From Novosphingobium profundi (GTDB lineage: Bacteria > Pseudomonadota > Alphaproteobacteria > Sphingomonadales > Sphingomonadaceae): a stretch of 64,000 nt of DNA. The stretch covers positions 496,001 to 560,000 of the forward strand of contig NZ_JAIVLF010000003.1 in NCBI RefSeq assembly GCF_020524485.1, read 5' to 3'. Under the pieces are notes generated by a model. That model was not told the DNA's origin. It saw only the letters and a program-made list of their open reading frames with translations, and did not search any database. The number at the start of each line of letters is the position of its first letter. The stretch's first letter is position 1. This document shows, one piece after another, positions 7,243 through 21,224 of the stretch. The position numbers and the translations under genes were made by a program.

Positions 7243-8367
7243 TTATCCCTCCAGAATTCGGTCATAAATCTCTTCCAGATGGGTTGCCTGGCGACGTACG
7301 TCGAAAACCTGTTCCACATGGTCGCGCCCCGCTCGGCCGAGCCGCAGTCCGAGTTCGGGGTCGAGCAGCAGACGTTCGAGCCGCTCAGCCAAGGCATCGA
7401 CATCCCCCGTCGGAGCCAGCAGACCGGTTTGCCCGTCCTTGACCGCTTCGAGGATGCCTCCCTGGGCGAACGAGACAACGGGTACACCTGCGGCAGAAGC
7501 TTCCATATAGGAAATCGGAAGCCCCTCGTTATCACCATTTGAGGAGGGAACCGAAGGGACACAAAAAACGCGAGCCTTCCCCAATTCCTCGACGACACGC
7601 GAATGCGGCTGCGCACCGAGGTAGTCGACATTGGCCAGTTTCGCCTTCGCGAGAGCGAGATAGGTGTCCCGCATGGGGCCATCACCAATGATCCGCAAGG
7701 TCGTGCCCTGCTCGTTCGCTCCTGCGCGTTCGAGCGCCTCGATGAGCAGGTTCAGCCCCTTCTTCTCGACCAGTCGGCCGACGTAGAGCACCACGTTTTC
7801 GCGCGCTTCGTAGTTGGGACGAAACTTGTCGAGAGCGATGCCGAGGTAGTGCAATGTCGTCTTCTCGGGCGCGGCGCCAGCCTGCGCGGCCTGTCCGGCG
7901 ATAAACCGTGACACCGGGAGAAAGTGGGAAGCTTCGCGAAACAGGCGAGCGCGCTTGGCGAGATAGATGCGACCTTCCGGCCCCATTGCCTTGAACGCCG
8001 CATCGGTAAACGTGACATCGTAACCATGCAGCGTGACGACGAGCGGAATCCCCAATCGGCGTGCAACCGGCAACATGTCGGCGGCATCAACAGCGAAATG
8101 GGCGTGGATCAGATCGGGTTTGGTCTGCGCGACCGCATCCACGAAGGCCTTGCCGACCCCCAGCGCCTTGAACAACCCGATCCGCATTTTGGGCACCTTG
8201 CCGCCCTTGCTCATGACGACCCGTCGGGTGTCCGCGATATCGAGTTCATCGAGTTCGCGCAAAGCTGCGAAGGTCGGTTCGTAGCGCGACATGCTGTCGT
8301 AGTGCTGCCGGATGAAAGTCTCCGAGATGGGCAGCAATCGAGAACGATAGATCAGAACGCGTGGCAC
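7243..8367 (-). CDS. Family 4 glycosyltransferase
   Basis: 374-residue GT-B fold enzyme. The N-terminal domain begins MPRVLIYRSRLLPISETFI, and the C-terminal GT4 signature is visible: NVVLYVGRLVEKKGLN, then GDGP, then an E-x7-E-like stretch (EGLPISYMEASAAGVPVVSF). It should transfer a sugar in repeat-unit synthesis on the cytoplasmic side. The start codon is GTG. It sits 24 bases upstream of the O-antigen ligase-like gene in the same minus-strand operon. Confidence 0.9.
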   Translation of the reverse strand: MPRVLIYRSRLLPISETFIRQHYDSMSRYEPTFAALRELDELDIADTRRVVMSKGGKVPKMRIGLFKALGVGKAFVDAVAQTKPDLIHAHFAVDAADMLPVARRLGIPLVVTLHGYDVTFTDAAFKAMGPEGRIYLAKRARLFREASHFLPVSRFIAGQAAQAGAAPEKTTLHYLGIALDKFRPNYEARENVVLYVGRLVEKKGLNLLIEALERAGANEQGTTLRIIGDGPMRDTYLALAKAKLANVDYLGAQPHSRVVEELGKARVFCVPSVPSSNGDNEGLPISYMEASAAGVPVVSFAQGGILEAVKDGQTGLLAPTGDVDALAERLERLLLDPELGLRLGRAGRDHVEQVFDVRRQATHLEEIYDRILEG

Positions 8368-8466
8368 GGAAATGCGATGCCTTTCACTTGAGTCCTAGTG
8401 GCATGAGCGAGCCACTACCCTTGTCCTGCGAATGGAGCAAAGACCCTCCGGTCTCGAAATCTGCCC

Positions 8467-9240
8467 TCAATGTCGCGTCAGCGCAACGAACAGCGCATGC
8501 GGTGTCGTCACCGCATATCGCCAGAACAGCTTGCGCGGGTTCGTCACCAGGCGATGTATCCATTCGATGTTGTTGCGCTGCATCCACTCCGGCGCGCGCG
8601 GATAGTGTCCCGTCACATAGTTGAAACAGCCGCCACAGGTCACGATCCATCCTGCCTGCAGCTGATCGCGCCAGCGCAGGGCGACCTCCTGCTCCTTGGG
8701 CTTACCCAGGCCGAGCCACACGACGTCAGGCTTCGCCGCGTTGATCTCAGCGACAATCTGCGCCTCGTCCTCCGGCTTGAAATATCCATTGCGTCGCCCG
8801 GCAATGCGCAACCGAGGATAGAGGCGGCGAAGTTCGGCAGCGCAAAGCGCGTTGACTTCCTCGCTCCCGCCCAGAAGATAGAAGCTGTGGCCGGTCTGCT
8901 CGAACCGGCGGGCGAAGTCGTGCAGCATGTCCGTGGTGGCCGAACGTTCGGGAATCGCGGCTCCGTCGAACCAACGCGAAAGCGTGACAAGAAATCCGCC
9001 ATCGGCATGGATGATGTCGGCCTGGCCGACCATCTCGCGATAGCGCTCGTCGGTGCGCGCGAGCGAAAGGCCGTGGCCATTGACGTCCATCACCGTCTTG
9101 GTGCGGCCATCCCCCGAAGCGATATCTTCAAGACATGCATCGACCAGCCCCTCGCGCGAAAGGCAATCGATTTCAAAGTCGCCGAAACAGCGCCGAGCGG
9201 GAGCAGTCTTCTCATTCACAGGCATATCATTCACTCGCAT
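8467..9240 (-). CDS. WecG/TagA/CpsF family glycosyltransferase
   Basis: 257 residues of the WecG/TagA/GumM family (GT26), which add a sugar (ManNAc, ManNAcA or GlcA in known members) to a lipid-linked intermediate. Evidence is the conserved DVVWLGLGKPKEQEVALRW block near residue 165 and the TMDVNGHGLSLA stretch near residue 50. About 100 bases without a gene separate it from the GT4 gene. The start is ambiguous between 9240 and an internal ATG at 9225; neither has a convincing Shine-Dalgarno sequence. A UDP-sugar dehydrogenase encoded next to it makes a hexuronic acid donor plausible. Confidence 0.87.
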   Translation of the reverse strand: MRVNDMPVNEKTAPARRCFGDFEIDCLSREGLVDACLEDIASGDGRTKTVMDVNGHGLSLARTDERYREMVGQADIIHADGGFLVTLSRWFDGAAIPERSATTDMLHDFARRFEQTGHSFYLLGGSEEVNALCAAELRRLYPRLRIAGRRNGYFKPEDEAQIVAEINAAKPDVVWLGLGKPKEQEVALRWRDQLQAGWIVTCGGCFNYVTGHYPRAPEWMQRNNIEWIHRLVTNPRKLFWRYAVTTPHALFVALTRH

Positions 9241-9285
9241 CTCACTCGGACTCTAACAGGTACACAGCGTTCGCCGCGATCAGCT

Positions 9286-10452
9286 TCAATCCGAACCAAA
9301 GATATCTCGCGTAAAGACCTTGTCCTTCACAAATGTGATATCCGGCGTCATGCGATTCGCGATAATGACATCGCAATCCTGCGCAAACTCATCGAAATTC
9401 CGCATCACGCGCGAGCCAAAGAAGCTCTCGTCCTTCATCGTAGGCTCGAAGATGACGACCTCAATGCCCTTGGCCTTGATCCTCTTCATGATGCCTTGGA
9501 TCGAAGACTGGCGGAAGTTGTCCGAGCCCGCCTTCATCACCAGCCGGTAGATGCCGACCTTGCTCGGATTGCGCGCGATGATCCGGTCGGCAAGGAAGTC
9601 CTTGCGCGTACGGTTCGCATCCACGATGGCCCGAATAAGGTTCTGCGGGACTTCGGAATAGTTAGCGAGAAGCTGCTTGGTGTCCTTGGGCAGGCAATAG
9701 CCGCCGTAGCCGAAGCTGGGATTGTTGTAGTGCGAGCCTATGCGCGGATCGAGGCCGATACCGTTGATGATCTGCCCCGCATCCATGTCACGGGCCATGG
9801 CGTAGCTGTCCAGTTCGTTGAAGAAAGCCACTCGCATCGCAAGATAGGTGTTCGCGAAAAGCTTGATAGCCTCGGCTTCCTCGGCGTCCGTAAAAAGAAC
9901 CTCGATCTCTTCCTTCAAGGCGCCTTCCACAAGCAGGTCCGCAAAGGTGGATGCCCGCTGCGAGCGCTCGCCCACGATGATGCGCGAGGGATAGAGGTTG
10001 TCGTAGAGCGCGCGACCTTCGCGCAGGAATTCCGGGCTGAAGATGACCTGAGAGGTCTGGTACTTGGTCCGGACCTCCTGCACAAACCCGACAGGCACCG
10101 TCGACTTGACCACGATTGTAGCATCGCATTTCGCGTCCAAGACCATCTGAATGACAGCTTCGACGGAGGAGGTATCGAACTTGTTCGTCTCAGGATCGTA
10201 GTTCGTCGGCGTCGCGACGACAACGTATTGAGCCTCGGCCAGCGCCTCTTCGGGATCCAGCGTCGCGACGAGATCCAATGATCGCGTCTTCAAGAAGTCC
10301 TCGATTTCCGCGTCAACGATCGGCGATTTTTTGGCATTGAGCATCGCGACACGCTCTGCCGAAATATCGACGGCGACGACATGCTGATGTTGCGCAAGAA
10401 GAACTGCATTGGACAGCCCCACATACCCCAACCCGAAAACAGCAATCTTCAT
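9286..10452 (-). CDS. ugd: UDP-glucose/GDP-mannose family dehydrogenase
   Basis: 388-residue NAD-dependent nucleotide-sugar dehydrogenase producing a UDP-hexuronate for the polysaccharide. The Rossmann motif [16 protein letters not shown] starts at residue 1, which fixes the start at 10452 rather than the longer frame. The catalytic cysteine lies in [12 protein letters not shown] near residue 250. The length matches the short UGD form of streptococcal HasB type. It is the promoter-proximal gene of the minus-strand polysaccharide operon and is preceded by a ~750-base non-coding region. Confidence 0.9.
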
Positions 10453-10939
10453 TCTAAGAGAACCTACTCTAGCTACACCATCGAAGGTTGAAGGCAACAC
10501 GGCGCAACATCCTTAGCCGGTGCAGCATTGGCAGCCTGAGACGCAATCAGTCAACGCCCCAATGCTGCAATTGCACAAGATAAATTGTCGACCCCATAGA
10601 CCAAGTCAAGATAAACAGTATTTGACACCTTAGGCTGGCAGGAGCCCGCAGCCCCCACCCCCTGTCGGAACCGGTTCAGTGGCATAGTCGCGTTGCATCC
10701 CGCATTGCAAAGCGCCCGAACGTTTTCCGGCTTCGGCAAGCGGTTGCCGGAAGGTAGGGCGCTGACCACCGGACTTTCTTCAGGTTTCAAGCGCATCGCA
10801 AGAATCGCATCGTTCGCGAAGGAACGTGGGCGGCATTGTTGTACAAGCGACCGATTGCTGCGCATGCGAATATTCCGCCCTTCCCCCCGTGGCCTGGAAG
10901 GTCACGCACCTCTCCGCAGGTGAGCTTGGGAGGTGAACG

Positions 10940-10996: not shown

Positions 10997-11007
10997 CCGC
11001 CGGGCCA
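10973..11007 (-). terminator. Leftward rho-independent terminator
   Basis: On the minus strand a 9-bp GC-rich stem (11007-10999 paired with 10987-10979, 11-base loop) is followed directly by six T residues. No annotated minus-strand gene lies upstream of it, so it should end a short transcript starting within about 190 bases. Confidence 0.6.
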
Positions 11008-11047
11008 AGTAAAAAAGGTTGCTCAAGCAGAGCCACCTTCGGGTCGC
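10973..11047 (-). ncRNA. Candidate ~75-nt small RNA, Crp-activated
   Basis: A TATGAG hexamer on the minus strand at 11059-11054 would place a start near 11047. The CRP-like palindrome is centred at 11088.5, exactly 41.5 bases upstream, the class II activator position. The transcript would contain a short internal hairpin region and end at the T-tailed hairpin at 10973. Prediction only; no homology to a named RNA is recognised. Confidence 0.35.
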
Positions 11048-11081
11048 AAAACCCTCATAGGCCAAATATTGCGCGGCGACC

Positions 11082-11095
11082 GTGATCCAGATCAC
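11082..11095. promoter_or_regulatory. CRP-like operator GTGATCCAGATCAC
   Basis: Perfect inverted repeat GTGATC-CA-GATCAC, matching the CRP half-sites GTGA/TCAC with N6 spacing. It lies 105 bases upstream of a Crp-type regulator whose recognition helix has the R-E-x3-R residues that read GTGA in E. coli CRP, so autoregulation is likely. Confidence 0.55.
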
Positions 11096-11199
11096 ACTTG
11101 ACGCCGGCCGGACACCCTAGTTGAATTTTCTGGAATTTCGGCGCAGATCAAAACATAGGTGCCAGCTGAAGACAGATCGCCGGACGGAGCCACCCCAAC

Positions 11200-11853
11200 G
11201 TGACCGAAGACGAAATCGAAGATGTCGTCCAGGCGGTGTTCCGTTGCAGTGCTACAGTGGCGCGCGAGCTCGCGCCGATCTTCTCTGCGCGCAAGCTCGT
11301 GGCAAAGCAGGTTCTCGCCAGCCAGGGCGCCCCCTCGAAAATGTGCTGGATCGTCATCAATGGCGCAATCCGTGTCGATGCGTTCGGCGTAAACGGACAG
11401 ATCCAGCAGCTCTCGCACTATGGACCTGGCGAATTCTTCGGAGCCTACCCGACAGAGACGCAACACCGCGCCGAAATCATCGCAGCCACCCGTTCACTCC
11501 TCCTCGGTACCGAGACCGTGCGACTTGCCAACGCTGTCGACAGGAATGTTGAGCTGGCCACTGGCATGGCCCGCCTCCTCGCCCGACAACTCGACCGTAT
11601 ACTGGACCAGATGGTCATACGCTCCACCTATTCCGCAGCGGGCCGGGTTTACGCCGAACTACTCGCACTGGCTCAGACCTCGCAGGCGATCGCGCCGCCG
11701 CCACGAATCACCTCGCTGGCGCTGGCGGCGAATACGACACGCGAAACGGCTTCGCGCGCCATTGGCGTCCTGGTCCGCCGCGGCATCATCTCGCGCGATG
11801 AGGAGAAACTCGTTATTCATTCCGCTCGCATGATCGAAGAACTGATCTGCTGA
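11200..11853 (+). CDS. Crp/Fnr family transcriptional regulator
   Basis: 217 residues. An N-terminal cyclic-nucleotide-binding-like beta roll (about 20-125) is followed by a long dimer helix and a C-terminal winged helix-turn-helix (about 165-210). The recognition helix reads TTRETASRAI, with R181, E182 and R186 at the positions that contact GTGA/TCAC in CRP. It lacks the N-terminal cysteine cluster of Fnr, so it is not an oxygen-sensing FeS protein. The GTG start at 11200 has CGGAG upstream. Its site lies between it and the polysaccharide operon, so control of that operon is possible but not shown. Confidence 0.85.
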   Translation: MTEDEIEDVVQAVFRCSATVARELAPIFSARKLVAKQVLASQGAPSKMCWIVINGAIRVDAFGVNGQIQQLSHYGPGEFFGAYPTETQHRAEIIAATRSLLLGTETVRLANAVDRNVELATGMARLLARQLDRILDQMVIRSTYSAAGRVYAELLALAQTSQAIAPPPRITSLALAANTTRETASRAIGVLVRRGIISRDEEKLVIHSARMIEELIC

Positions 11854-11899
11854 CCATCTCGCCCATGCCAGGAAAGAAACTGGGGCGTCGGCCCGAGAC

Positions 11900-13372
11900 C
11901 TACTCCGGTTGCAGTGGCGAATAGCGCGCGATCGGAATGTCACCAAAGGGAGTAACGAGCTCACCGGATGGCTCGAAGCGGACCTCCGGATCGAGAACAT
12001 CGAACACGCAGACGTGGGGCCAGGCTCCGCAGATGTCGTTGCCCTGCGCCGCTCGTGCGAAGTAGATCGCCCTCTGGCCAGCTACCTCAAGCGAGATTTC
12101 CGAGCCCATGGTACCGTAGTCGAGGCCAAGGCGGGCCCCGGTCTGGCAGGACAGGATCTCACGCCCATAGCGCACCGCCTCAAGCACGTCGTCGAAGGCA
12201 CGCAACCAATAGCCCTCCTCGGTCTGCCAGGTATCTCCGCAGCGACCGGGCCGATCGGGAAACGATTGATCGCAGGCCAGGATCGCGCGGCTGGCCCCGA
12301 CGCCGACCGTCTCAAAGGGTACGCCGCGCGGGACATCCCGACGGACTTGGTAGATTGTGCGACCACTTTCCTTCCACCAAGACAGGGCCAGCGCCAGCTC
12401 ATCCTCACTGCGCCCCACGTGAAGCGCAACGGCATCGGTCGCCAACTGATTGGCCCGGCGTATCGCGAGGCCCATCGCAATCGCGGTGGCCTGAATGATT
12501 CCGGAATGGGTCACCTCTCCCTGTTCGGGCAGGTCAATCAGGCTATCGGCCCTATCGACCAGTGCCTCGAACCGCGGCAGCCAGCTACGCCCGAATCGCG
12601 CCACGGAGGTTGCGCGGAATTGCTCAAGTGATCCAGGCAATACGACATGCAGCTGGATGCCAAGCTCAAGCGCCATTTCCGCAATAAAGATGTCGGCCCC
12701 GGCTGCCAGCGCGCCATAGGCCGCACCTGGCCCGATCTCGTGCAGAGCCTTTCCGATCTGGGCACAGACCTCGTCCTCGTGCCCCGTAAGATTCATGATT
12801 CCACTGAAATGCAGAGTTGCCGGAGGAGAGAGCCCGTCCAGCATCTCGAAGCTGTCGCCAGTAGCCTGAAGAATCTCCCGAAACTGGCGAATGGTGGCGG
12901 CGCGGTCCTCCCAGGCCTGTGGCGCGGACGCCAGCGCCGCGAGCAGAGCCTCCCGGCTTCCGTGTTTGTCCCCTAGGAGCAAACGAGCCTCTGCGACTGT
13001 CGCATTCAGCCAGAAGCCGGTTTCCGGCTCGTAGTCACCACTCTCAATAATTGCGAGAATGCGCCGTGCGTCCTCCCGGGCCTCAATCACGTCCCCGCAC
13101 AGAAATGCCGTCGTTGCAGCATTGATCAAAGGATAAGTGGCACGTCGCTCACCTGCACTGGCGCGGTAGGCCGCTGCGGCCTGCCGAGCAAGAGCGAGAC
13201 GCGCTCTTCCCCGGCAGCGCAGCGACCGGTCCTTCAGGAGACGCCCCTTGAGAGCGAGAACCTCACTCGAAGAGTCCTCGCAAAGTCCGGCCTCCTCGAA
13301 CATGTGCCACGCCTTTGACGTATCGCCGTTGCGGGCCGTCTGGCGGATGCGGGTGAGTAGAGTGGGAAACAT
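11900..13372 (-). CDS. TPR protein with SLOG/Rossmann-like domain (possible signal sensor)
   Basis: 490 residues. The N-terminal ~170 residues are TPR-like helices (KAWHMFEEAGL, then ALKGRLLKDRSL). From about residue 185 a Rossmann-like segment begins with LHFSGIMNL, then AYGALAAGADIFIAEMAL and LHVVLPGSLEQF. This pattern is found in TPR/cyclase-associated proteins and resembles SLOG-type nucleotide-binding folds. A further alpha/beta segment ends the protein. No catalytic domain is recognised. It is the last gene of a three-gene minus-strand operon, 15 bases after the 160-aa unknown. The SLOG assignment is by pattern only. Confidence 0.6.
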   Translation of the reverse strand: MFPTLLTRIRQTARNGDTSKAWHMFEEAGLCEDSSSEVLALKGRLLKDRSLRCRGRARLALARQAAAAYRASAGERRATYPLINAATTAFLCGDVIEAREDARRILAIIESGDYEPETGFWLNATVAEARLLLGDKHGSREALLAALASAPQAWEDRAATIRQFREILQATGDSFEMLDGLSPPATLHFSGIMNLTGHEDEVCAQIGKALHEIGPGAAYGALAAGADIFIAEMALELGIQLHVVLPGSLEQFRATSVARFGRSWLPRFEALVDRADSLIDLPEQGEVTHSGIIQATAIAMGLAIRRANQLATDAVALHVGRSEDELALALSWWKESGRTIYQVRRDVPRGVPFETVGVGASRAILACDQSFPDRPGRCGDTWQTEEGYWLRAFDDVLEAVRYGREILSCQTGARLGLDYGTMGSEISLEVAGQRAIYFARAAQGNDICGAWPHVCVFDVLDPEVRFEPSGELVTPFGDIPIARYSPLQPE

Positions 13373-13387
13373 GGCCCTGCCGTTACC

Positions 13388-13870
13388 TCAGCCGTCGATC
13401 GGCGGCGGATTGGTGATGTCGGGATCGATCGCGATGCCGGTCCAGCGACGGTTCCCCTTCGCATCCTCCTGGAGGAGATCGACGTTGATGTTGAAGGGAT
13501 GGATCGTGCCGTACTTGCCCCCCGCGTTGAAGCGCGCCTTGAACTGGACGGTCTTGTAGCGGCCGTAAGCCTTGTCGTAGTCCGCGTAGACCAGCCCACC
13601 GTAATAGGACGACAGTTCCTCCTTGGTGGTGATCGCCTCGTAGGCATCGGAAAAGAAGAGCTGATCGCCATCCAGCTGGATCGTCACGTAGCAGTCTTCG
13701 GTGATCGCGATGTAGTCCTTTCCGGTGTCGGCATCGCGGCAGGACAGGACGACCTGTCCCTCACGGACCGCAAGCGTGACCTTGTACACGACAGAGCGCG
13801 CGCTCTGCTCCAGGCTCAGGCTATCGAAGAATGGGGCCAGCCCATATTGCTTGTAGTTTATCGTCGACAT
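13388..13870 (-). CDS. Conserved-looking 160-aa protein of unknown function
   Basis: I do not recognise the family. The protein begins MSTINYKQYGLAPFFDSL; this ATG at 13870 is preferred over the upstream one (13927) because AAAGGAAGAG lies just upstream. It has an acidic, aromatic-rich, mostly beta character with no signal peptide or membrane segment (VVYKVTLAVREGQVVLSCRD, then a YYGGLVYADYDKAYGRYK stretch). It sits between the TIR-TPR gene (60-base gap) and the TPR/SLOG-like gene (15-base gap), so it is probably part of the same system. Confidence 0.6.
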   Translation of the reverse strand: MSTINYKQYGLAPFFDSLSLEQSARSVVYKVTLAVREGQVVLSCRDADTGKDYIAITEDCYVTIQLDGDQLFFSDAYEAITTKEELSSYYGGLVYADYDKAYGRYKTVQFKARFNAGGKYGTIHPFNINVDLLQEDAKGNRRWTGIAIDPDITNPPPIDG

Positions 13871-13930
13871 CGCAGCTCTTCCTTTCTCTCCTGCAGCAGT
13901 CTCTTGCAAGGCGTTGCTCTGACGCACTCG

Positions 13931-15523
13931 CTAGTCCGAGCCGGCCTGTGGCCAGGGTTCGGAAAAGCGCTTCTTCCAGACCTTCCAGTCATGATTTTCC
14001 GGGTCTGAGGCAATCAGCCGATCAAGTTCCTCCTGGGCCCGGCTGCGCATGCGCTGGGCCATCGCGCGAAATCCCATCGCATGGCGCAGCCGCGAGGTGG
14101 AATTCATCGCCAGCATCCAGGCCTGGCGATAGGTCGCATTCTTGGGATCGGTATCGAGCAGGTCCCGGGAGATTTCCAATTGCTTCTGGCGCTGGTCCAG
14201 CGCGTCTTCCTCGCGCCCCTGCCGAAGCAGCGCATCGGCATACCAGGCGTAGCGATTGGCCAGATCGCGCGTGACCTCCAGATTGTCCGGCTGCATCGCA
14301 TGCACGCGCAGCAATGTCTCCAGAGCCTCGTGACATTCCGGCAGGAGATCGGGATTTCCCGCCTCGTCCAGGCCGACCGAACACAGGTTCCCTTGCGCGT
14401 AGGCCAGCTCATGGCGGTATTCGGGATTGTCTGGCTCAAGCTGCACCAGCTTTTGCGAAAGAGCCTTGTAGGCCGTGAAGTGCGGCAAGGCCTGAAGCGG
14501 CTTCTTGCGCATGAAGATCGCGTAGCCCACCCAGAACTCGCTCTGCGCCTGGCCGTAGATCCGCAACGGATCGTCCGGTGCCGCCGCCAGCAGCGCGGCC
14601 GTGGCGCGGCTAGCTTCCTGGAACTTGGCAACGGCGCCCTCTACGTCGCCGCGGCGATGATCGTCCTCGCCCATGGCGTGCAGGATACGGGCCCTGCGCT
14701 CGAGCGAATCCACAGGCAGCGCATCGAGATCGGCCTGCTCGGCGTAATAGTCGAGCGCGCGCGCGTTGACCGTTTCCAGCACGTCCAGCCTGCCCACGCC
14801 CTTCAGCCTCTCGCGCAGATCCGTCAGCATGAACTCGATCAGCCCCTCGGCCTGCCTGCGTTGCTCGTCCGCTTCGCGTTGCGCCCTTATGGCGAACACC
14901 AGCATGAGGCCCATCACTAGAGCAAGAGCGAAGGCCAGCGCCGTGATCGAGATCACACGGCGCATCCGGCGCTGGGCATCGCGCTGAATAATTTCATCGA
15001 GAGCAAGGCCCGACAGGCCGGCCAGGATCTTGAGGCGCGCGAGTTGGCGCCCGTCCTTGTCGGGCCGAAAGTCGGCGGCGATGGGCTCGCGCACCTTGCC
15101 ATCGCGGCCCGGCATGACAAGCGCGGCCGGAAAGCTCTCCGAGGGTTCTCCGCGCAGCAGCGCGGCGATCACCGGACGTTCGGGGTGGAGACGCCGGAAC
15201 AGGGCAATCTCGGCGTTGACCCAGCGCGAGGCCGCCGCCTCGGGCGAACACAGCACAAGCAGCGCGGCCGAACCGGCCAGAGCCTTCTCGACCTCGGAAT
15301 CAAGGCTGCTCGCCGCCGGCAGTTCGGCCCGGTCGCGGAAAATCGGCGCAAGACGCCGGGGCACGCGACCGCGCGGCGTTTCAGAGCCGACAAGGCGAGC
15401 AGGGATGCGGTAATTCTCGAGCCAGCGGTGCAGGCGCCCCGCCTCCCGCTCGTCGGCGTGGCTGTAGCTCAGGAAGGCGCGGTAGCGATCCTGCGGCGCG
15501 GCACTGGCGTCCTCTTGCCTCAT
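13931..15523 (-). CDS. TIR domain - transmembrane - TPR protein
   Basis: 530 residues. TIR domain at about 12-150: box 1 RAFLSYSHADE, box 2 region RDRAELPAASSLDSE, and SRWVNAEIALF with E105 at the position of the catalytic glutamate of NAD-cleaving TIR enzymes. One transmembrane helix at about 190-212 (ISITALAFALALVMGLML), then a C-terminal TPR region to the end. Bacterial TIR domains are commonly NADases or make cyclic ADP-ribose-type signals; a membrane-tethered TIR with a TPR sensor would fit signalling or abortive defence. It is the first gene of a three-gene operon, 200 bases downstream of the GGDEF gene. Confidence 0.8.
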   Translation of the reverse strand: MRQEDASAAPQDRYRAFLSYSHADEREAGRLHRWLENYRIPARLVGSETPRGRVPRRLAPIFRDRAELPAASSLDSEVEKALAGSAALLVLCSPEAAASRWVNAEIALFRRLHPERPVIAALLRGEPSESFPAALVMPGRDGKVREPIAADFRPDKDGRQLARLKILAGLSGLALDEIIQRDAQRRMRRVISITALAFALALVMGLMLVFAIRAQREADEQRRQAEGLIEFMLTDLRERLKGVGRLDVLETVNARALDYYAEQADLDALPVDSLERRARILHAMGEDDHRRGDVEGAVAKFQEASRATAALLAAAPDDPLRIYGQAQSEFWVGYAIFMRKKPLQALPHFTAYKALSQKLVQLEPDNPEYRHELAYAQGNLCSVGLDEAGNPDLLPECHEALETLLRVHAMQPDNLEVTRDLANRYAWYADALLRQGREEDALDQRQKQLEISRDLLDTDPKNATYRQAWMLAMNSTSRLRHAMGFRAMAQRMRSRAQEELDRLIASDPENHDWKVWKKRFSEPWPQAGSD

Positions 15524-15723
15524 GGCTGTGGCGCATTCATCCCAAGCGACCCCATGACCCGTCCAGACACCGCCTCGGCCGCATGTGCAGTATCCCCCAT
15601 TCCGTCAGGCGACAGCGCGTAAACGGCTGTTTTCCCGGGATGGCCCTCGCACCTTGGAATATCACACCGGGGCCCGGACGCAAGCGCCCTCGGCCGCGTC
15701 CAGGCACCCGCAGGTCCTGCCCG

Positions 15724-17511
15724 TCAGGCCGCGACACGCACCCCGTTACGCCCGGACTGCTTCATGTCCTGGAGCGCGGTGTCGGCGATCCCTCGCGCAT
15801 CCTCGGGCGTCATGCCCGAACGCAGCTGCACCACCCCGCAGCTGACCGAGGAGAGGACGGCCACATCGCCTGCACGGCAGACCGGGCTTTGCCGCACGGC
15901 CTCGGCGATACGCTCGCAGATGCTGCGCGCGGTCAGGATGTCGCAGCGCAGCAGCAAGGCGAACTGGTCGGCCCCGAGGCGCGCGACGACGTCGGTATCG
16001 CGCGCATTGCGCTTGATGCGCCGCGCCACTTCGACAAGCGCGGCATCGCCCACGACCAGGCCGTGCTCGTCGTTGATCGTGTGGAAACTGTCGAGATCGA
16101 CGAGCGCCAGCGAAATCGGGCGCCCCACGTCCTCCATCGCCCGGTCGAGGTGGACGAGGAAGCTCTCGCGCGCGCAGACGCCTGTCAGGCGGTCGGTCTC
16201 GGAACGGCCGATCAGCGCCAGGTCGAGCGCCCGGCGTTCGGTCACATCGCGCAAGGTCACCACCCAGCCTGAATGCGCGCGCCCCTTGCGCAGAAGTCCG
16301 ATAGTCCCCTCCAGGACGAGAGCGGGACGGCGCATCGGCGAGAACTCGATCAGCCGGGTCGCGCCCTGCGCCCCGAAATCCTGACTGCGACAGGCCTTCC
16401 CGAGATCTTCCATGAGATCGTGGACCTGCAGCGAGACCGTCTCGCAGGACCGCCCGATCATCTCCTCGGCCGAAATGCCCAGGAGCGCCTGGACGGGGCC
16501 CGTCGCCCATTTGCACTGGCCCGAACTGTCAAAACCCAGGCACGCGGTGGCCGCGCTCTCCAGCACCTGGCGCAAGGCTTCCTCGCGTTCGGCCAGACGG
16601 ATCGCCAGATGCCGCCGCGAAGTCACCAGCGAGGCGACCGGGAGGCAGGTCAGGAGCAGCGCGCCCAGGTAGAGCTGAAAAAACAGCGTCTGAAGCTGCG
16701 CAGACACCGGCATGCCCGCGACGGGTCCATGACCCGCGAGTGTCGCCGCGAGACCCGTGAAGGCCACCAGCATGACCCCCAGCTTGGTGCCAAGGCGGCC
16801 GAGCCGGAACGACAGGTAGGTCACCAGGCACATCGGGAGGAACAGGAGCGGCACGAAGGACTGTGTGAAGACCGCAGCGGTGGTCAGAAGCAGCAGCCCG
16901 TAGCCGCCGAGCGCACTCCACATCTCGCGCCGGTTGGCAAAGCGCAGCCAGCGCACATAGCTGCCATCGAACAGCGCACACAGGAACGGGGTGAGGACCA
17001 GCAGGCCAAGGGCATTGCTGAAATACCAGTTGCCGACCGAAACGAGAAACGGCGCGCCAAAGGCCAGGGCCGTCACCGCCGATCCGATAAGCGCGGCGAT
17101 CAGCACCGCGACCCCGCCAGCGTAGAGGACAAAGCGCCAGATCGCCCGGTTCGAGGCAAAGATCTCGGACCTTGGCGTGTGGCGCAGCACCAGCCAGGCC
17201 GCGAGCAAGGTCTGCCCCATGTTGATCACGCCGTAGGTGACGAGAACGGGAGACCAGCCGCGTGCGACAGTATTCGCCGCCAGGTTTGCGGCCCATCCGG
17301 CCGCCAGGACCCACCCCCAGTTGGCGCGCGGTTCCCGCAGGAGGAGCATCAGGATGATGGCATCGGCGGGCCAGATCGTGGCGACGTCGTAGCCTTTGCT
17401 GGTCAGCTGGATGGCGAACGTGGCGAGCACGAAATACCCCACCGCCGCGATGATCGCGGCATCGGCACGTCGCTCGAGCACAGCACGCGATTCGGGGCCT
17501 GAGTTCACCAT
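15724..17511 (-). CDS. MASE1-PAS-GGDEF protein with degenerate GGDEF
   Basis: 595 residues. About eight membrane helices (residues 20-300) form a MASE1 sensor (IWPADAIILMLLLREP is typical), followed by a PAS domain (about 305-420) and a GGDEF domain (about 430-595). The signature motif reads RLGADQF at residues 511-517 instead of RxGGDEF, with the second Gly and the Glu both replaced, so diguanylate cyclase activity is doubtful. The upstream metal-binding segment LALVDLDSFHTINDEHG is intact. It lies 85 bases downstream of nifA on the same strand; co-transcription is possible. Confidence 0.85.
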   Translation of the reverse strand: MVNSGPESRAVLERRADAAIIAAVGYFVLATFAIQLTSKGYDVATIWPADAIILMLLLREPRANWGWVLAAGWAANLAANTVARGWSPVLVTYGVINMGQTLLAAWLVLRHTPRSEIFASNRAIWRFVLYAGGVAVLIAALIGSAVTALAFGAPFLVSVGNWYFSNALGLLVLTPFLCALFDGSYVRWLRFANRREMWSALGGYGLLLLTTAAVFTQSFVPLLFLPMCLVTYLSFRLGRLGTKLGVMLVAFTGLAATLAGHGPVAGMPVSAQLQTLFFQLYLGALLLTCLPVASLVTSRRHLAIRLAEREEALRQVLESAATACLGFDSSGQCKWATGPVQALLGISAEEMIGRSCETVSLQVHDLMEDLGKACRSQDFGAQGATRLIEFSPMRRPALVLEGTIGLLRKGRAHSGWVVTLRDVTERRALDLALIGRSETDRLTGVCARESFLVHLDRAMEDVGRPISLALVDLDSFHTINDEHGLVVGDAALVEVARRIKRNARDTDVVARLGADQFALLLRCDILTARSICERIAEAVRQSPVCRAGDVAVLSSVSCGVVQLRSGMTPEDARGIADTALQDMKQSGRNGVRVAA

Positions 17512-17596
17512 CCTCGCCCCGATAATCCAGCAAGGGTTAACCCAATGTATACTTGTCTAACAAAACCGGTGGAAATCCCGGAAAACAGAGGCATTA

Positions 17597-19360
17597 TCAG
17601 AACTTGCGCACCTCTATGTCGTACTTGCGGATGGCATAGCCGATCTGGCGCGGGGTCAGTCCCAGCAGCCGCGCCGCCTTGGCCTGGACCCAGCCCGCCC
17701 CTTCCAGCGCATCGAGCAGTTCGGCCCGGCTCACCTTGACGTTGTCGAGCGGCAGGTCCCGGTCCGGTTCGCGCCGGTGGAGGGGAATGGCCGGGGCCTC
17801 GCCCCCGCGCTCGGGGGCCACGCCGCCCTGCTCCTCGCGCGGGCCCGGCTGGACGATGGGGAAGGGATCGGAAACCGCGGTCTTCCAGAGCATCGCGGAC
17901 AGGCACTCGTCGTTGCGGCAGGCAAAGTCGCGCGCGTCGATCCGGTCATCGAGCGAGAGCGTGGCGGTGCGCCGGATACAATTCTCCAACTCGCGCACGT
18001 TGCCGGGAAAGTAGCAGCTTTCCAGAACATCGAGCGCGGAGGGGCTCAGTTCGTGCTCGGTGTGGTGTTCCTGGTCGAAGCGGCGCAGGAATTCGCGCGC
18101 GAGCTGGGGGATGTCCTCGCGCCGGTCGCGCAGCGCGGGCAGGCGCACCGAGACGACATTGATGCGGTAGTAGAGATCGGCCCGAAACTCGCCCTTGGCG
18201 ACCGCTTCCTCCAGGTTGCGGTTGGTCGCGCAGACGAGCCGCACATCGACCTTGATCGTCTGCGTGCCGCCGACGCGCTCGAATTCACCTTCCTGCAGCA
18301 CACGCAGGAGCTTGACCTGAAAGGCCTGCGAGGTGTCGCCAATCTCGTCGAGGAAGAGTGTACCGCCATCGGCCAGTTCAAAGCGCCCCTTGCGCTGGGC
18401 GACCGCGCCGGTGAAGGCGCCCTTCTCGTGCCCGAAAAGTTCGGACTCCAGGACGGATTCGGGAAGCGCGGCGCAGTTGAGCTTGATGAACGGCTTCTTC
18501 GCGCGCGGGCTGAAATCATGGGTCGCACGGGCAAACAGCTCCTTGCCCGTGCCCGATTCCCCGCGCAGCAGCACCGCCGAGTGGCTGCGCGCCACCCGGC
18601 GGATACGCTGCAATGCCTCGCGCAGCGCCGGGCTGGAGCCAACGATGTCCCCCTGCTCGTCTGTGTCCTCGGCCTTGGCCTCGGCGCTGCGTGCCCGGCG
18701 GGCAGAGCCGTCCTCGAGCCCTTTTTCGAGCAGGCGGTGCTGATCCATCAGCCGCTCGCGGTCACGCTGGACGAGCTTGAGCAGCCGCACCGTCTGGCCG
18801 ATCAGGTTGGCGACCATGGTCAGGAAGCGCACGTCCTCATCCGCCGCGTGGTACGTCGTCGTCTCGTCCCAGATCTGTTCGATGGTGAGCGTGCCCACCA
18901 CTTTCAGGCGGTCCTTGATCGGCACCCCGATGAAGGAGACCCGCGCGCCGGGCGGCAGCGGCCCATCGAAGGCCCAGTCGGGAAACAGCGCGCTGCGCTC
19001 CATGTTGTGGACCACCACCGGCATCCCGGTGTCGTAGATCTGGGCGACCGCACGTTCGGGCTGGCGCCCCATCCACAAGTGCGCGCGCTCCTCGCTCCAG
19101 CCGATCCCCACGACGCTGGTGGGCGCCCCCTCCTCGTCGAGCAGGGTCACGAGGCCGTGGCGCATGTCGAGGAAGCTGGAGAGCAGCGTCAGCACGTTGG
19201 TGAGCGTCGCCTCCAGCCGTCCCGGCACGGCCAGGACCTTGGAAATCTCGTAAACGCCGCGCAGCGCGATATCCGCGCGCGTGTGGCTCGGGCCGCGGCT
19301 GTAGCTGCTCACGGAGTAACCGGCCGTAGCGGGGGCGACTGTCGATGCATGCGTACCCAT
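17597..19360 (-). CDS. nifA: NifA, sigma-54-dependent nif activator
   Basis: 587 residues. N-terminal GAF domain (about 35-190), AAA+ domain with Walker A GESGTGKE and the sigma-54 contact loop ELFGHEKGAFTGA, and a C-terminal Fis-type helix-turn-helix ending at KYDIEVRKF. Cysteines C449, C461, C481 and C486 form C-x11-C-x19-C-x4-C, the redox motif of oxygen-sensitive alphaproteobacterial NifA, so it should need no NifL and none is found here. ATG 19360 (AAAGG upstream) is preferred over GTG 19414. It follows fixABCX as in rhizobia. It should bind the TGT-N10-ACA sites reported below. Confidence 0.97.
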   Translation of the reverse strand: MGTHASTVAPATAGYSVSSYSRGPSHTRADIALRGVYEISKVLAVPGRLEATLTNVLTLLSSFLDMRHGLVTLLDEEGAPTSVVGIGWSEERAHLWMGRQPERAVAQIYDTGMPVVVHNMERSALFPDWAFDGPLPPGARVSFIGVPIKDRLKVVGTLTIEQIWDETTTYHAADEDVRFLTMVANLIGQTVRLLKLVQRDRERLMDQHRLLEKGLEDGSARRARSAEAKAEDTDEQGDIVGSSPALREALQRIRRVARSHSAVLLRGESGTGKELFARATHDFSPRAKKPFIKLNCAALPESVLESELFGHEKGAFTGAVAQRKGRFELADGGTLFLDEIGDTSQAFQVKLLRVLQEGEFERVGGTQTIKVDVRLVCATNRNLEEAVAKGEFRADLYYRINVVSVRLPALRDRREDIPQLAREFLRRFDQEHHTEHELSPSALDVLESCYFPGNVRELENCIRRTATLSLDDRIDARDFACRNDECLSAMLWKTAVSDPFPIVQPGPREEQGGVAPERGGEAPAIPLHRREPDRDLPLDNVKVSRAELLDALEGAGWVQAKAARLLGLTPRQIGYAIRKYDIEVRKF

Positions 19361-19422
19361 GACGGAAGCCTTTCTGCCGTCAGCGCATTCCTCTCCATTT
19401 CCCGGTTCCGGCACTGCTCCCT

Positions 19423-19474
19423 TGCGGAGTCGGGCCCGCGTCTCTTCGTGGTTCGACGTGTCTTGATTTGGACA
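19423..19474 (-). promoter_or_regulatory. Weak NifA site and sigma-54-like box upstream of nifA
   Basis: TGT-N10-ACA at 19459-19474 and a poor -24/-12 match with GG-N10-GC spacing (CGGGCC-N5-CCGCA on the minus strand, 19438-19423) lie in the fixX-nifA gap. They are unusually close together, so autoactivation by NifA is only a possibility. Confidence 0.2.
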
Positions 19475-19569
19475 AACGTCTCAAATCCCAAGCGATTCGA
19501 CAAGAGAATAAGCGCCCTCCCCCAGGACTTCCTTACAGTAATCTGACAAAACCATGCCTCTGCATGACT

Positions 19570-19869
19570 TTATCCGAACTTGTAGAGCACCCCGAAACCG
19601 CCGCGCGGATAGTTCCACTCCACTTCGCCCGTCTTGCGCGTGACGATGCGGCAGGTCCCGCATTCCAGACACCCATCGGCGGCCACTTCGACCTGACCGG
19701 ATTCGGTCACGGCATAGCATCCCGCCGGGCACAGGCGGGTCATCGCCAGCAGGCTGGCCGAGGGCACTTCGTGCTCACGCACGCGGATATGGGGCTTGCC
19801 GGCGTCGACGAGGTAGCGGTTCTGAAACAGCTTCTCCTCGACCTTGGGAGCGGTGGCGATTTCGGTCAT
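19570..19869 (-). CDS. fixX: FixX, ferredoxin-like subunit
   Basis: 99-residue ferredoxin-like protein of the FixABCX electron-bifurcating complex, which delivers low-potential electrons from NADH to nitrogenase ferredoxin or flavodoxin. Cysteines CPAGCYAV and [10 protein letters not shown] supply the iron-sulfur ligands. The C-terminus [15 protein letters not shown] is typical of FixX. The ATG at 19869 gives the standard length; the long frame running to 21276 is a shadow of fixC. It is 41 bases downstream of fixC and precedes nifA. Confidence 0.96.
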
Positions 19870-19910
19870 TGCGCGTCTCCTTTCATGGTTGGGCAGAACG
19901 TGAGGTCCCC

Positions 19911-21224
19911 TCAGCGCCAGGCGCGGGCCACGCGCCAGGCATCGCCGAGCAGGCCCCGCAGGCTGCGGCTGTCGCGAAAGCTCTTGAGGATGGCCTTTTC
20001 CTTGGTCTTCTTGTCGACCCCATCGACCCGGAACCAGGTCTGCATGGCCTGGCTGAAGAGGCGCGGATAGGTACCGAAGAAGGTCGTCTTGTTGGCGTCG
20101 AGCAGCCCGGGGATCCCCTTGTATTTCTTGAGGTCCTTCATCACGAAGGTCGCTTCGAGGCGCCGCTCGTACTCCTTGAGGGTATAGCCATCCATCGCCT
20201 CGCCCTTGCGGTGGAGCGCGACCACGGTCTCGGCCGCGATGCGCCCCGTCGTCATGGCCAGGTTCGAGCCCTCGCGGTGGACCGCGTTCACGAACTGCCC
20301 GGCATCGCCGACCACGATCCAGCCATCCCCGGTCAGCTGCGGGATCGCCTTGTAGCCGCCTTCCGGGATCAGGTGGGCGGCGTATTCCTTGACTTCCGAG
20401 CCTTCGAGCAGCGGCGCGATCGAGGGGTGCGCCTTGAAGGCTTCGAGCAGTTCGGCCGGTGTTGCCTCGCCTTCGGCAAAGTCGGAGACGATGCAGCCGA
20501 TGCCGACCGAGATCGATTCCTCGTTGGTATAGAGGAAGCCCGTGCCGGTCATGCCGCGCGTGATCGTGCCCATGGCCTCGATCACCACGCCCTCGTTGCC
20601 CTTCAGGTTGAAGCGCGCCTCGATGGTTTCGCGGGGCAGGAAGTGCATCTCCTTGACCGCCAGCGCGACGCTTTCGGGCGCGATCTCGGGCCGCAGCCCG
20701 GAGCGCTGGCCGACCAGGCCGTTGACCCCTTCGGCCAGGATCACGACAGGCGCGAAGATCGGGTTGCCCTGTCGATCGGTGCGCACGCCGATGACCCGAC
20801 CGGTCAGATCCTTGACCAGTTCGGTCACGGTCGTCTCGCACAGGACCAGCGCGCCCGCTTCCTTGACCTTGGCCGAGAACCACTTGTCGAACTGCGCGCG
20901 CAGGATCGTGTAGCGGTTGGGCTTCTCCTCGTTGAAGTCGCCTGAACGGTAATGCATGCCGGTGTGCGAGGTGTCGTCCATCGACCACATGCGCTGCTCG
21001 ATCACGTGGCGTTCCAGCGGCGCTTCCTCGCGGAATTCCGGGATGATCTTCTCGAGCGCGTCGGAATAGAGGATTGCGCCCTGCACGTTCTTCGAGCCCG
21101 CGTACTCGCCCCGCTCGATCTGGAGGACACTCAGCCCCTCCTTCGCCAGGGTATAGGCCGCCGCGTTGCCCGAAGGCCCGGCCCCCACGACAATCGCATC
21201 GAACGTGTCCTCCATCTCGGCCAT
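19911..21224 (-). CDS. fixC: FixC, flavoprotein quinone reductase subunit
   Basis: 437-residue FAD protein related to ETF:quinone oxidoreductase. Dinucleotide motif [16 protein letters not shown] lies at residues 9-24 and a second FAD block, [15 protein letters not shown], near residue 295. In the FixABCX complex it passes one electron branch to quinone while the other branch reduces FixX. It is 14 bases downstream of fixB in a tightly spaced fixABCX operon, which itself follows nifW by 4 bases. Confidence 0.96.

Follow-up and report, generated by a model that had tools for sequence, protein, structure and literature searches.

The question raised by this locus is what a TIR protein, a small hypervariable protein and a TPR protein do together when they are encoded side by side. 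The three genes lie between positions 11,900 and 15,523 of a 64,000-nucleotide stretch of Novosphingobium profundi DNA (contig NZ_JAIVLF010000003.1 of assembly GCF_020524485.1; henceforth the window, by which we mean the whole stretch). An earlier note, made from the sequence letters alone, had proposed that they might form a new signalling or defence system in which a TIR-made signal is sensed by a SLOG-like domain and the middle protein acts as effector. We find that the three genes belong to a conserved unit of four, the fourth encoding a CRP/FNR-family regulator, and that the TPR protein (henceforth the TPR-S protein) ends in what profile comparison identifies as a dead class III nucleotide cyclase. 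The regulator gene and the cyclase remnant point to a transcriptional output, and a TIR/SLOG signalling module that acts through transcription, with its cyclic-nucleotide step lost in the window's lineage, is the reading that we tentatively favour.

The three open reading frames (ORFs) are present on the minus strand where the earlier note had placed them (Table 1), and all four frames of the module are open. The ORFs are mechanical calls with uncertain start codons; the middle protein, 160 residues from its ATG, would have 179 from an upstream GTG. Sixty bp separate the TIR gene from the middle-gene ATG and 15 bp the middle gene from the TPR-S gene, and 46 bp past the TPR-S gene comes the regulator gene, which is oppositely oriented and convergent with the operon.

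To establish whether these genes travel together, we surveyed related genomes from two sides. The middle gene's family, PF20301, was present in 2 of 385 genomes of the class, 26 of 397 of the family and 4 of 398 of the phylum, the window's own genome being counted each time. With PF20301 or the window's middle protein as the query, this survey yielded 27 loci (26 genomes besides the window's own, plus L004; L numbers designate loci). The order TIR, middle, TPR-S was the same in 26 of them, the exception being L047, which has the TIR gene and in which no TPR-S gene was found, and a regulator lay at most 500 bp from the TPR-S gene in 19. Since choosing loci on the middle gene biases such a survey, it was repeated from the TPR-S side. 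TPR-S was found in 54 of 246 genomes of the order (one locus per genome, 12 seen before and 42 new); the TIR gene was adjacent in 34, a regulator lay within 500 bp in 36, and both held in 28. Eight of the 54 have the regulator and lack the TIR gene, among them two loci cut by contig ends (L119 and L125) and one with a TIR fragment (L087); at L087 (6682-6909) the TIR match has shrunk to a 75-residue ORF, the TPR-S and regulator pair being otherwise retained. Counted by locus set, a TIR homologue adjoined TPR-S in 26/27 and 22/43 loci of two surveyed sets, and the regulator was convergent with TPR-S in 44 of the 45 surveyed loci that have one (exception, L045). Among the flanking ORFs of 56 loci the commonest family occurred in only 4. 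Because the TIR, middle, TPR-S and regulator genes are linked and no other flanking family is widely shared, we conclude that they form a conserved four-gene unit. The conserved three-gene order expected by the earlier note is thus borne out, and the regulator was a fourth member that it had overlooked.

The C-terminal part of the TPR-S protein had likewise escaped notice. Judged by profile comparison, its last ~125 residues descend from a class III nucleotide cyclase that is dead in the window. PF00211, the class III cyclase family, was matched at E ≤ 0.05 by 25 of the 44 TPR-S proteins in alignment A4, and a profile of 14 C-termini from the window's clade matched one of 43 intact-like cyclases by hhalign with 95.6% probability (E 4e-9), as against 0.6% or less for SLOG-region, CRP and DprA control profiles. 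The relatives display the motifs FADxxGF, N(T/S)WGD, RIGGHYGP and AARIEPVTPPGS, of which the window retains little beyond RLGLDYG; its metal columns read D and G, so that the two metal-binding Asp residues are not kept, and a Pfam scan gave no PF00211 match in the window's TPR-S protein. The cyclase ancestor probably once made a chemical signal for the regulator.

The regulator has changed in step. It matches PF13545 and retains the CRP-type helix-turn-helix, with DNA contacts of the form RE..R (read as TTRETASR); across 49 regulators the contact residues are RE..R in 45 and RE..K in 4. It lacks the phosphate-binding cassette GE...R(S/T)A, has GAYPTETQHRAE instead, and its pocket has changed to FGAYP. 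As yardstick for the pocket we took the E. coli CRP sequence, with the triad E, R, S/T; a cyclase was called intact when both metal Asp residues were present. Of the 49 rows with a linked regulator, 13 have metal pair and pocket triad together, 35 have neither, and in one the two disagree. The pocket is thus kept in 13 of 14 rows with an intact metal site and in none of 35 with a dead one; since both losses fall on a single branch, this table records one joint event and not many independent observations. A tree restricted to the TPR/SLOG columns needs a single change of the pocket and two of the cyclase, the second of them at L045; the change common to both sits on a well-supported branch (100/99). 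In one large sub-clade the pocket has taken the form G(A/S/V)(Y/F/L)P, which is common to 25 of the 49 regulators, including the window's; a pocket conserved in this way is, on comparison of these sequences, not random debris.

Cyclase and regulator are also paired in loci without this form of TIR. Differently built TIR genes, TIR-FHA (L097, L106) and TIR-SH3 (L102, L128), adjoin TPR-S-cyclase genes in other loci of the order, so that the coupling to TIR recurs with other TIR architectures. At class level 76 of 289 genomes matched A4, mostly by the cyclase part alone. We inspected 20 loci with longer A4 matches; this TIR or middle gene was absent from all 20, several of which are cut by contig ends. 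Three of these loci outside the order (L163, L165 and L166) have a directly upstream regulator on the same strand with an intact pocket, FGEIALI...RSA, and a fourth, L174, has a different cyclic-nucleotide-binding ORF of 779 residues on the opposite strand. The TPR-S-cyclase proteins of L172 and L173 are long, at 752 and 710 residues, in genomes of only 0.8-1.0 Mb.

The operator pattern YGTGA-N6-TCACR, which 8 of 4371 background windows taken from the loci themselves contain, was found upstream of the TIR gene in 5/12 loci with an intact cyclase and in 2/37 with a dead one (5/12 against 3/35 when re-anchored on the TIR motif, two loci without an anchor being left out). Upstream of the regulator gene the distribution was reversed, with 0/10 intact and 14/36 dead loci, the window included; some of the loci counted are near-copies of each other (L031/L032, L055/L117). 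The window carries two exact palindromes where 0.16 would be expected. One lies at 11081-11096, upstream of the regulator gene; the other, at 14942-14957 inside the TIR gene, may be due to chance or be an internal site. The window's genome (4.64 Mb, 99.99% complete) holds two proteins with a cNMP_binding match: the local regulator, and one that is FNR-like and whose best NCBIfam model is FnrL, below cut-off; since there are only these two and the other is FNR-like, the local regulator is the likeliest predicted reader of the 11081-11096 site. Class III (PF00211) and class I (PF01295) cyclases gave no match in this genome, although the controls did match and other cyclase classes were not searched, and cyclic-nucleotide control of the regulator in this organism therefore looks unlikely.

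What, then, feeds the regulator? The TIR domain matches PF13676 (TIR_2, 43.1 bits) and PF08937 (ThsB_TIR, 39.7 bits), both over cut-off. The catalytic glutamate that the earlier note saw at E105 lies in WVNAEIALF, which fits the WVxxEI motif carrying the predicted catalytic Glu of TIR NADases, and its column is invariant, Glu in all 44 TIR homologues tested. A Pfam scan of the TIR protein found no cyclic-nucleotide-binding or CAP12-PCTIR match. The TPR-S protein matches PF20308 (TPR-S, 31.1 bits) and PF13281 (MAP3K_TRAF_bd, 25.7 bits), again over cut-off. Its middle part, from about residue 183, had been read as a SLOG/Rossmann domain, and a hhalign comparison with LOG gave 62.3% probability (E 7.4e-5) over about 66 columns only; by the same comparison the known SLOG pair LOG and DprA gave 57.7% (E 1e-4). 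The LOG and DprA profiles, of 21 and 20 sequences from 25 loci each, had been trimmed to their domains; untrimmed, the alignments gave no hhalign match, not even for the LOG and DprA control, and matches appeared after trimming. YpsA (PF06908) had no match in 26 relatives, which left no profile for it. Alignment A2 shows strong conservation of the domain's GALAAGAD motif. We take this as moderate support for a SLOG-like identity, not as proof, and the pairing of a TIR domain with a SLOG-like one is upheld to that extent. According to PMC9503650, YpsA-like SLOG domains include sensors of cyclic ADP-ribose (cADPR). Structure prediction, which the earlier note had suggested, helped with the TPR repeats only: from a two-sequence alignment (window and L004), the 490-residue model had a mean predicted local distance difference test score (pLDDT) of 50.8, with fair confidence in the TPR part and mostly below 50 in the SLOG-like region, and the 160-residue middle-protein model, at 33.6, was unusable.

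The middle protein is not without a name, as had been supposed, since the ORF matches PF20301 (pNTSase1) at 186 bits, a family labelled "Predicted novel nucleotide synthetase". Where the TIR gene is adjacent, about 430-1540 bp separate it from TPR-S, and this interval contains an ORF. We assembled 52 middle proteins of 145-303 residues, with the ORF assigned by hand in L030, L032, L054, L108 and L127. Over the 37 loci with a DP-type tail, the middle protein has a mean pairwise identity of 23%, whereas the TIR protein reaches 43% and the TPR-S protein 36%. An IDPxxxNPPP-type C-terminal tail ends 44 of the 52, with the following Asn in 37/44 and the preceding Ile in 40/44; these 44 were selected by DP, so that the occurrence of DP itself is not independent evidence. 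The other eight (L094, L101, L104, L110, L113, L123, L125, L126) end in HGG(I/A)HPP or a similar tail. L114 (9453-10190, 8709-9428) and L121 (5534-6196, 6272-7042) each carry a tandem pair of different middle genes. With a body that diverges freely and an end that stays constant, the middle protein may be a variable sensor or adaptor that docks through its tail. Such a role fits the pattern at least as well as the effector role proposed before, which our results do not support.

The nearest named relative found, Novosphingobium sp. BW1 (L004), divides the unit in two. Its TIR and middle proteins are each 96% identical to those of the window, as against 58% for the TPR-S protein and 72% for the regulator. 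At the DNA level identity is about 87-97% per 250 bp over ~13,500-19,800 (middle gene, TIR, GGDEF and the NifA side) and 56-74% from 11,000 to 13,500 (TPR-S, regulator, operator), and to the left of 10,973 the two no longer align; the drop falls at 13250-13500, at the junction of the middle and TPR-S genes. The TPR-S/regulator side of one strain was thus probably exchanged by recombination with a break near this junction, which, as a single case, fits a middle gene and TIR that can work with divergent TPR-S-regulator pairs.

The reading that we favour, with confidence somewhat short of even, orders these parts as follows; its biochemical steps are all ones that we infer. The hypervariable middle protein would register a stimulus, its fixed tail docking on a conserved partner. 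The membrane-anchored TIR protein would then make a signal derived from nicotinamide adenine dinucleotide (NAD), or serve as a switchable scaffold, and the TPR-S/SLOG protein would sense the state of the TIR protein. In the relatives' form, TPR-S/SLOG would switch on its fused class III cyclase, whose cyclic nucleotide would activate the neighbouring CRP-type regulator; this would then bind ahead of the TIR operon, at sites resembling TGTGA-N6-TCACA. The window's lineage has a dead cyclase and a regulator that no longer has its cyclic-nucleotide pocket; one large sub-clade has gained the conserved FG(A/S/V)(Y/F/L)P pocket, and the operator-like sites now lie mostly upstream of the regulator's own gene. 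With cyclase dead and pocket lost, the signal would have to reach the regulator otherwise, by protein contact or a different ligand.

Several observations weigh against this reading. The correlation between cyclase and pocket is, by the tree, one event, and an independent-pairs test had two pairs and cannot reach significance; L045 disagrees, its state depending on the alignment (D + gap or D + D). A Lys and a transition-state Asn have roles in the active sites of adenylate cyclases; the intact-looking cyclases mostly have N or S at the Lys position and mostly lack the Asn. The SLOG fold depends on one moderate match in a region where the structure model is unusable, with DprA at 0.3% only and five other profile pairs at 0.3% or less. 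In the majority of loci an operator-like site is missing from both places, and the 11081-11096 site agrees at 8 of 10 positions with what we take to be the FNR consensus, so that FNR could in principle bind it. Finally, 20 of the 54 TPR-S genomes lack this TIR, 18 the regulator and 12 both. The descent of the cyclase, its death, the branch shared by the cyclase and pocket losses, gene order, the TIR glutamate and the operator-like sites are all read from sequence.

A bolder version would be a cross-talk cascade, in which a TIR- or NAD-derived signal acting through SLOG/TPR-S gates a cyclase that feeds a dedicated CRP-type factor; in the window's lineage the cyclic-nucleotide step would have been excised, and the FGAYP pocket would now read the TIR signal or the TPR-S protein directly. 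With N or S in most cases at the position of the usual Lys, the fused cyclase may possibly have an unusual base preference. We regard such a cascade as doubtful.

A Thoeris-like anti-phage system, in which a cADPR-type signal made by TIR is sensed by SLOG and the middle protein brings about death or arrest of the cell, would account for the invariant TIR glutamate, for the SLOG-like domain and for a component that evolves as fast as in arms races; flanking genes that vary by locus would mean that the unit moves or that its surroundings change fast. Thoeris (ThsA SLOG and ThsB TIR) would resemble the window in that a TIR protein adjoins a protein with a domain that is, on moderate profile similarity, SLOG-like. 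However, ThsA has an effector domain (SIR2, transmembrane or other), and library scans found none in the window's SLOG-like protein or in the other module proteins. The window differs further in its TPR-S region and cyclase remnant, a variable third protein, a TIR protein with transmembrane helix and TPRs, and a transcription factor; Thoeris is not known to include a dedicated DNA-binding regulator. The defence-island enrichment anticipated by the earlier note also failed to appear. We compared with PADLOC 70 of 74 selected flanking genes from 48 loci (at most one per side, at most 700 residues; four genes of L032 and L051, near-copies of other loci, excluded), and at 1e-10 six models matched, each in 1/70 genes, without a random-gene baseline. 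The three module proteins themselves gave weak or generic TIR/TPR matches only, and the middle protein had no match in phage records or viral contigs. We consider this explanation unlikely and rank a regulatory module above a defence system, although the TIR domain and the variable component mean that the unit may still serve in defence.

The module could also be a non-enzymatic signalosome, a TIR and TPR complex that, as in ASK kinases, works by contacts alone and controls the regulator by binding. The PF13281 and PF20308 matches recall the TPR-S region of ASK/MAP3K5, the A4 profile weakly reaches ASK1 (5ulm, E 0.033), and cyclase and pocket are both dead in the window's lineage. Unlike ASK/MAP3K5, the module has no kinase and is a bacterial operon with TIR. 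An invariant TIR glutamate is unexpected for a pure scaffold, and the strongly conserved GALAAGAD motif also speaks against one; contacts alone are in our estimate not a probable answer.

That the middle protein is a nucleotide synthetase making a messenger for TPR-S, with TIR as effector, is improbable. The Pfam name says so and Lys83 is kept in 38/44, but apart from the tail no residue other than Gly38 and Lys83 is conserved to 85% in these 44 proteins, eight of 52 lack the IDPxxxNPPP tail type, and the fold model is unusable, though strands outnumber helices in it. Conservation as we read it thus lends the label no support, and an active site would be neither supported nor excluded by it. 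That the window's copy is a decaying relic is very improbable, for in spite of two lost ancestral features and the divergence of TPR-S and regulator from BW1, its frames are open, its TIR and middle proteins are nearly those of BW1, its new pocket motif is widely shared and the TIR glutamate is retained.

How much of this is new? A wholly new system, as had been suggested, it is not: TPR-S and pNTSase1 are already named Pfam families, and the window encodes together the three families (TIR, PF20301 and PF20308) of TIR/pNTSase1/TPR-S conflict systems, a combination which we take to be the definition of such a system. Since the Pfam names of the trio reportedly derive from Burroughs and Aravind (2020, J Bacteriol), the trio has very likely been described before; that paper reportedly gives the TPR scaffold a predicted role in recognising NAD+-derived signals. 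Our literature search found no mention of pNTSase, PF20301 or PF20308, and nothing that describes the descent of the cyclase domain, the regulator's place in the unit, the joint loss or the operator shift, some of which the 2020 paper may contain. The link between cyclase and regulator is what this analysis adds. It brings the window's relatives close to class III cyclases that work with CRP, as they have a PF00211 domain, a CRP-type regulator with a pocket and, in some, operator-like sites; they differ in unusual active-site residues and in a cyclase fused to TPR-S/SLOG and tied to TIR, which in the window is dead. Pycsar likewise brings a cyclase together with a TIR effector, but in the window the cyclase motifs are lost, the TIR protein lacks the matches expected of a cyclic-nucleotide reader, and the likely nucleotide reader is the transcription factor.

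Table 1. Positions, in the window, of the four genes of the module and of features in and near them.
Feature	Position	Strand	Basis or remark
TIR-TM-TPR protein (TM, transmembrane), 530 residues	13931-15523	minus	PF13676/PF08937 over cut-off
TIR domain, about residues 13-155	15059-15487	minus	Pfam stretch 17-153
Predicted catalytic Glu E105 of TIR domain	15209-15211	minus	column Glu in 44/44 homologues tested
Likely transmembrane helix, residues 190-212	14888-14956	minus	putative; hydrophobic stretch VISITALAFALALVMGLMLVFAI by sequence reading
Middle protein, 160 residues, PF20301 pNTSase1, hypervariable	13388-13870	minus	186 bits
C-terminal tail of middle protein, IDPDITNPPPIDG	13391-13429	minus	tail type in 44/52 middle proteins
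TPR-S / SLOG-like / dead cyclase protein, 490 residues	11900-13372	minus	PF20308, PF13281; alignments A2, A4
TPR-S repeats, residues 12-157	12902-13339	minus	Pfam; model gives helical repeats, fair confidence
SLOG-like domain, about residues 183-320, GALAAGAD motif	12413-12826	minus	hhalign against LOG; domain end estimated
Predicted dead class III nucleotide cyclase domain, about residues 361-487	11912-12292	minus	hhalign; metal motifs lost
CRP/FNR-family regulator, 217 residues	11200-11853	plus	PF00027 and PF13545 over cut-off
Operator-like CRP-type palindrome CGTGATCCAGATCACA	11081-11096	no strand	119 bp upstream of regulator gene

On one side of the module, at 17597-21224, lies a gene for NifA (TIGR01817, 718 bits, over cut-off) with FixX- and FixC-like genes below cut-off; with these neighbours the host may fix nitrogen. 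On the other, at 7243-10500, are polysaccharide-type genes (GT4 glycosyltransferase, WecG family, UDP-sugar dehydrogenase). Across the surveyed loci, the Pfam families of flanking genes were mostly metabolic among the 25 of 71 listed. Viral contigs held no TPR-S relatives. One plasmid record, a 1.8-Mb Novosphingobium plasmid, has adjacent TPR-S and TIR matches, and nine further plasmid records match parts of the TIR protein only, at less than 60% identity.

Bacterial TIR systems have mostly been described as cell-killing defences. PF20301, labelled a "nucleotide synthetase", gains a testable alternative reading as a variable sensor whose fixed tail serves for docking. If our reading is true, a TIR/SLOG module wired to a transcription factor would join NAD-derived and cyclic-nucleotide signalling in one pathway, and the coincident loss of cyclase and pocket would offer a natural before-and-after comparison. 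If the FGAYP pocket reads a TIR-derived signal or the TPR-S protein directly, the window's lineage would have a bacterial pathway from TIR to a transcription factor.

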